In this document: piece after piece, positions 43,842 through 43,926 of the stretch | Numbering within the stretch: the stretch's first letter is position 1 | How the letters are laid out: each line of letters starts with the position of its first letter | NCBI GenBank assembly: GCA_019973575.1 | Contig: BPUI01000001.1 | Span: forward strand, 2,244,342 to 2,308,341 | Origin: Gemmatimonadetes bacterium T265 | Lineage (GTDB): Bacteria; Gemmatimonadota; Gemmatimonadetes; Gemmatimonadales; Gemmatimonadaceae | DNA length: 64,000 nt | Reading direction: 5' to 3' | Made by a program: the position numbers and the translations under genes | Notes under the pieces: generated by a model | What the model saw: only the letters and a program-made list of their open reading frames with translations | The model's database searches: none | What the model was told of the DNA's origin: nothing

Positions 43842-43889
43842 CGTGGTGATTTGCCGCCTCTTGCCGCCACGTAAAACAAAGAGCTAAAA
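43842..43889 (+). promoter_or_regulatory. SAM-II riboswitch aptamer
   Basis: The sequence aligns with the SAM-II fold. P1 is CGTGGT (43842-43847) paired with GCCACG (43866-43871). The loop carries the conserved GATTT and TTGC. CTCTT (43858-43862) pairs with AAGAG (43879-43883) to form the pseudoknot, and this is followed by the invariant-looking GCTAAAA. It lies upstream of O-acetylhomoserine sulfhydrylase and homoserine acetyltransferase genes, the standard SAM-II context. High SAM should shut the operon down. The region is strikingly AT-rich for this genome. Confidence 0.88.
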
Positions 43890-43895
43890 CGCGAG

Positions 43896-43926
43896 AGCCC
43901 GGGCGGCCCCAGCTGCCCGGGCTTTG
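43896..43926 (+). terminator. Expression-platform hairpin of the SAM-II riboswitch
   Basis: AGCCCGGGC (43896-43904) pairs perfectly with GCCCGGGCT (43915-43923) across a ten-base loop, followed by TTTG. It begins six bases after the aptamer, so it could act as an attenuator. The T run is short, and translational control cannot be excluded. Confidence 0.55.

Follow-up and report, generated by a model that had tools for sequence, protein, structure and literature searches.

A SAM-II riboswitch upstream of metY-metX-panB in Gemmatimonadota with a probable antiterminator strand in aptamer loop L1

SAM-II riboswitches are usually presented as alphaproteobacterial, and structural work on the class centres on an example that acts on translation. 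The locus described here raises the question of whether a SAM-II element and a hairpin upstream of methionine genes in a Gemmatimonadota genome form a switch and, if so, which strand of the aptamer would decide whether the terminator forms.

The aptamer, the hairpin and the downstream genes

We scanned the window, i.e. the whole stretch of 64,000 nt analysed here, against Rfam 15 using cmscan. SAM-II (SAM_alpha, RF00521) was the sole RNA family above threshold in these 64 kb, with an E-value of 2.2e-5 over the whole window. The alignment spans the entire model, and P1 is an intact helix of six pairs including one G-U. The features of the locus are as follows.

43793..43821, plus strand: promoter-like TTGACG, 17-nt spacer and TACTCG, putative start near 43829 (sequence; profile of relatives)
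43833..43907, plus strand: SAM-II (SAM_alpha, RF00521) aptamer, scoring 39.4 bits (gathering score 36)
43842..43847, plus strand: P1 5′ strand CGTGGT, pairing with 43866-43871 (Rfam alignment)
43848..43852, plus strand: GATTT, invariant, opening loop L1 (Rfam alignment; relatives)
43853..43859, plus strand: L1 strand GCCGCCT, in the aptamer loop and proposed as the 5′ strand of the antiterminator (complementary to 43901-43907)
43861-43864, plus strand: TTGC (sequence)
43866..43871, plus strand: P1 3′ strand GCCACG (Rfam alignment)
43877-43879, plus strand: CAA (sequence)
43883..43889, plus strand: GCTAAAA, invariant 3′ aptamer strand (Rfam alignment; relatives)
43894..43925, plus strand: terminator hairpin, 14 pairs, loop CCCA, followed by the broken U run TTTGTCGTGT (RNAfold; z-score)
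43901..43907, plus strand: GGGCGGC, the half of the terminator 5′ arm nearest the loop; proposed to pair with L1 as the 3′ strand of the antiterminator (complementarity, covariation and folding)
44018..45493, plus strand: metY, O-acetylhomoserine sulfhydrylase, start 44018 preferred and 44000 possible (PF01053, E 4e-139; TIGR01326, 633.6 bits, over cut-off)
45490..46581, plus strand: metX, probable homoserine O-acetyltransferase (TIGR01392, E 9e-81, under its strict cut-off)
46569..47402, plus strand: panB, ketopantoate hydroxymethyltransferase, overlapping metX (PF02548, E 5e-96; TIGR00222, over cut-off)

The original prediction had identified a SAM-II riboswitch here and proposed an Infernal search as the check, which now places the element above the gathering score; P1, GATTT, TTGC and GCTAAAA all lie at 43842-43889 as it had described, and GATTT, TTGC and GCTAAA are invariant across 39 aligned sequences. 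The score exceeds the cut-off by just 3.4 bits, as would suit a chance match or a degenerate relic that no longer binds SAM. Such an origin is nevertheless highly improbable: every invariant aptamer position is retained in the window, and the same element lies upstream of metY in other genera. A chance match is excluded by the same search at E ≤ 0.01, which matched 57 of the 59 related genomes but none of 14 control genomes. The Rfam score above the curated threshold, the methionine-gene context and the conservation across the phylum thus support the identity of the element as a genuine SAM-II aptamer.

The gene assignments bear out the predicted position upstream of metY-metX and add panB as a third gene, the successive genes overlapping by a few bases. 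As the likely metY start lies >100 nt downstream of the aptamer, the aptamer is unlikely to block the ribosome site directly at this locus. The promoter-like sequence was not flagged by a consensus promoter scan; in the upstream profile of 120 relatives, a position ~30 nt before GATTT is enriched in A/T and positions -55 to -52 are weakly enriched in T. A 16-nt inverted repeat, 94% complementary, occupies 43772-43813 just past the upstream gene, with the promoter-like TTGACG located between the arms and at their edge; the repeat may either terminate transcription of the upstream gene or act as an operator. We also observed SAM-II directly before panB in five relatives (L003, L033, L040, L044 and L115). 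With panB ending the metYX operon of the window, this hints at a link between SAM sensing and pantothenate synthesis.

Six bases past GCTAAAA, AGCCCGGGC (43896-43904) is followed by its perfect complement GCCCGGGCT (43915-43923), exactly the nine-pair GC hairpin predicted. RNAfold extends the stem to 14 pairs, two of them G-U (43894-43907 with 43912-43925), with a free energy of -28.3 kcal/mol, and the 41-nt hairpin stretch has a z-score of -5.3 against shuffles. The tail, TTTGTCGTGT from 43923, reads as an interrupted run TTTGTCGT; it is short, and a consensus scanner did not call a terminator here. A match of the hairpin to RF03766 was discarded, being far under the cut-off of that family. 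Across the phylum, 84 of 121 Gemmatimonadota SAM-II sites are followed by a hairpin whose energy is -15 kcal/mol or lower and whose tail has three or more T in eight positions, compared with 19 of 121 dinucleotide-shuffled sequences. Attached terminators are therefore the rule in Gemmatimonadota, as in proteobacteria, for which reports from 2005 and 2007 describe terminators coupled to SAM-II (PMC1273637, PMC2258182). The coupling had been singled out in the original prediction as worth recording; the hairpin is real, but the arrangement has long been known from those reports, and S. meliloti metZ is predicted to have it too (PMC9373788).

The CTCTT/AAGAG pairing proposed for the pseudoknot P2 does exist in the window, but relatives do not maintain it: in a set of 110 different Gemmatimonadota aptamers, its variable positions pair no more often than shuffled ones. 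Within P2, conservation is seen for UUG facing CAA and for a C facing the G of GCTAAA. The lack of covariation at the middle positions suggests that the middle of P2 is weak or non-canonical in Gemmatimonadota, and it pairs better in an alphaproteobacterial-type set.

SAM-II in Gemmatimonadota and other phyla

Of the nine best MetY relatives, eight come from records titled Gemmatimonad-, in agreement with the Gemmatimonadota origin guessed from the sequence. The genome itself (5.6 Mb, six contigs) carries a second SAM-II of 45 bits on the minus strand (C1:1994184-1994255), so that the element in the window is one of at least two and not the single occurrence that had been implied. This second SAM-II (L001, 1467-1571) has its own terminator hairpin and precedes a TonB-dependent receptor gene, a target that is unmentioned in a study of proteobacterial regulons (PMC4239095).

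SAM-II is routine in Gemmatimonadota. We found it in 209 of 298 sampled genomes of the phylum at E ≤ 0.01, compared with 57/299 in Pseudomonadota, 18/149 in the phylum of an Acidobacteria MAG and 8/148 in Bacteroidota at the stricter limit of E ≤ 0.001, and no match occurred in the 14 control genomes at the limits used. Counting only matches over the RF00521 cut-off, the numbers were 174/298, 49/299, 11/149 and 3/148, respectively. The rarity implied at first is not supported, and Gemmatimonadota is the phylum richest in SAM-II among the four sampled.

We also considered whether SAM-II arrived horizontally together with MetY from another phylum. This was rejected: only two of 13 genomes with MetY relatives have SAM-II at E ≤ 0.01, both of them titled Gemmatimonas or Gemmatimonadetes, and the remaining 11 have none, among them a genome labelled Acidobacteria whose MetY is close. 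SAM-I was found in four of 41 relatives and not in the genome of the window. Two genomes carry both classes, with SAM-I over its cut-off in each and SAM-II over its cut-off in G046 and at E 1e-5 in G039; a 2007 survey found SAM-I and SAM-II together in no species (PMC2258182). In the Acidobacteria-MAG phylum, two genomes contain tandem pairs of SAM-II matches 125-140 nt apart (G814:C64:9738-9950 and G826:C128:9976-10173), each match alone being under the Rfam cut-off.

Complementarity between L1 and the terminator

In the window, GCCGCCT of L1 is complementary to GGGCGGC in the 5′ arm of the terminator. We compared this pairing across 121 distinct Gemmatimonadota SAM-II sites with downstream DNA, which precede metH (the largest cluster), metY, metX, metF, panB, thrC and the gene for an ATP-grasp protein. 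Sites whose L1 starts with GCCGC, GCCCG or GTCGC were taken as the L1-type subgroup, a split defined after inspection of the data. Within it, complementarity of L1 to its own terminator scored 17.68 against 16.38 ± 0.25 for permuted terminators, a value reached in 0 of 2000 permutations that take no account of relatedness, and a control region downstream scored 11.83. When the whole set was reduced to one sequence per distinct L1 (41 sequences), 0-2 of 2000 permutations, again uncorrected for relatedness, reached the L1 score. All 15 metY loci, all five panB loci and four of six metX loci in Gemmatimonadota are L1-type.

In the alignment of 39 sequences, GCGG on the terminator side is near-invariant while the opposite bases of the 3′ arm vary; we rejected the possibility that this conserved GCGG is unpaired in the terminator, where it is mostly paired. 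All six L1 pairs are present in 31 of 39 sequences (a script counted 28 of 35; of the four sequences its pattern failed to match, reading of that output added three), but the second SAM-II in the genome of the window (L001) has only five of six. The outer pair changes jointly from C:G to G:C (27 C:G and 5 G:C; Fisher p 1.7e-5, taking no account of relatedness), and L028 has a compensatory change from C:G to T:A. Permutation and compensatory changes, uncorrected for relatedness, therefore both back an L1 antiterminator mutually exclusive with the terminator. These comparisons suggest that the L1 bases are probably the antiterminator strand that decides terminator formation in the metY/metX/panB subgroup.

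We consider it likely that the element is a transcription attenuator, an OFF switch, for the metY-metX-panB operon with L1 as the antiterminator. When SAM is scarce, L1 would pair with GGGCGGC as polymerase makes the terminator 5′ arm; this pairing would hold off the hairpin, and the operon would be transcribed. When SAM is plentiful, L1 would be locked into the aptamer pseudoknot and the 5′ arm freed, upon which the hairpin 43894-43925 would form and transcription would stop before metY. In this scheme we infer SAM binding, termination despite the broken U run, the role of L1, the order of folding and the direction of control. The L1 helix is predicted at -13.3 kcal/mol compared with -28.3 for the terminator; as the terminator is far more stable, antitermination would have to be kinetic. 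In co-transcriptional folds, GGGCGGC pairs with a GCCGCC copy when the RNA ends at 43908-43914, and the terminator appears from 43917.

GCCGCC occurs twice in the window, at 43853-43858 and 43863-43868, and the attenuator might instead pair the second copy (the end of L1 plus the P1 3′ strand) with the terminator 5′ arm; P1 would then pair anew with the first copy, and the L1 complementarity would be a by-product of the likeness of the copies. For nascent window RNA ending at 43908-43914, the fold of lowest energy has this arrangement; it is nested, with P1 rearranged, and was obtained with ViennaRNA, which cannot draw the L1 pseudoknot; many members of the subgroup also have TTGCCGCCACG, i.e. 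two copies. We nevertheless regard it as unlikely. The second copy is replaced by AGCC, GGCC or TGCC in L003, L004, L028, L029, L033, L115 and L125 while all six L1 pairs are kept, and in L028 and L130, where the copies differ, the terminator fits the L1 copy better. Since relatives without the second copy retain the L1 match, L1 is favoured as the antiterminator strand.

The opposite direction of control is very unlikely. The SAM-II pseudoknot also pairs L1 with a 3′ partner, so the L1 helix could by its topology belong to the SAM-bound fold, in which case SAM would prevent the terminator (an ON switch). However, the Rfam alignment and the invariant GCTAAA place the 3′ strand of the aptamer upstream of GGGCGGC, and switching on by SAM makes little sense for methionine synthesis genes.

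The sites outside the L1-type subgroup appear to be built differently. In these 54 sites, the metH group, the L1 score was 11.69 compared with 11.67 after permutation. Instead, the GCTAAA strand complements the terminator loop (15.05 against 13.55 ± 0.29, reached in 0 of 2000 permutations, relatedness uncorrected), and metH loci comprise 35 of this GCTAAA type versus two L1-type. The conservation of a pairing between an aptamer strand and the terminator in both subgroups argues against a hairpin that merely terminates constitutively or partially, or stabilises the mRNA, with control exerted elsewhere at translation or a promoter. Such a role has been suggested for S. meliloti metA, where the terminator after SAM-II was not predicted to respond to SAM (PMC9373788), and the poor U run in the window would fit it. 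The likely ribosome site, however, is far from the aptamer, and we consider this explanation improbable, slightly more so than pairing by the second GCCGCC copy.

Relation to known SAM-II riboswitches

The A. tumefaciens metA SAM-II shares with the window element its fold, the invariant GATTT, TTGC and GCTAAA, an association with methionine genes and a possible start site just before P1. The window element differs in phylum and in the poorly paired middle of P2, and its model score of 39 bits is below the approximately 60-88 bits of most listed Pseudomonadota matches. Termination upon SAM binding is predicted for the S. meliloti metZ SAM-II as well (PMC9373788). Among the Pseudomonadota loci examined, it is often the P2 3′ strand that the terminator arm complements (e.g. 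L220, CAGGCCGGG:CCCGGCCTG), whereas the arm in the window complements L1. The Sargasso Sea metagenome SAM-II upstream of metX (PDB 2QWY) belongs to the same aptamer class but hides the ribosome-binding site in its pseudoknot (PMC10907184), unlike the window with its distant start codon. Some relatives may have a translational layout, as an ATG lies about a dozen bases past GCTAAA in L032, L034, L035, L036 and L048.

Within Gemmatimonadota, the SAM-II of the metH group (e.g. L129, L119 and L007) has the same aptamer and an attached terminator but carries the antiterminator signal in the GCTAAA strand (L129, GCTAAAACGC:GCGTTTTAGC), not in L1. We tentatively propose, as an idea that may well prove wrong, that the phylum uses a single aptamer class with either of two interchangeable antiterminator designs, depending on the target gene: L1 with the terminator arm, pseudoknotted, for metY/metX/panB, and GCTAAA with the terminator loop for metH; the L1 design might also explain the missing antiterminator of Sinorhizobium-type metA. 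In Sinorhizobium-type loci (L232, L234, L235 and L237-L241; the assignment is a guess from sequence type), L1 GGCCGGT complements ACCGGCT in the terminator arm. These loci are too alike for covariation, but their fit to L1 suggests that the L1 design may extend beyond Gemmatimonadota.

Both the SAM-II class and its coupling to terminators were known already, and what is new is a variant of the expression platform on a known riboswitch. The terms 'Gemmatimonad' and 'SAM-II' occur together in none of the papers searched, a search that covered open-access literature; the phylum-wide use of SAM-II and an L1 antiterminator separate from the GCTAAA design were likewise not found in the open-access literature. 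The locus offers a probable switch between aptamer and terminator that covariation supports.

Two further observations concern the genes next to SAM-II. In L003, two SAM-II elements stand back to back on opposite strands (1501-1576 and about 1784-1860), with panB following one and an ATP-grasp gene following the other. An ATP-grasp protein of some 420-440 aa, linked to SAM-II and without a precise family, recurs in L074, L031, L063, L077, L132 and L003, and is a candidate for a new step or product in methionine metabolism.
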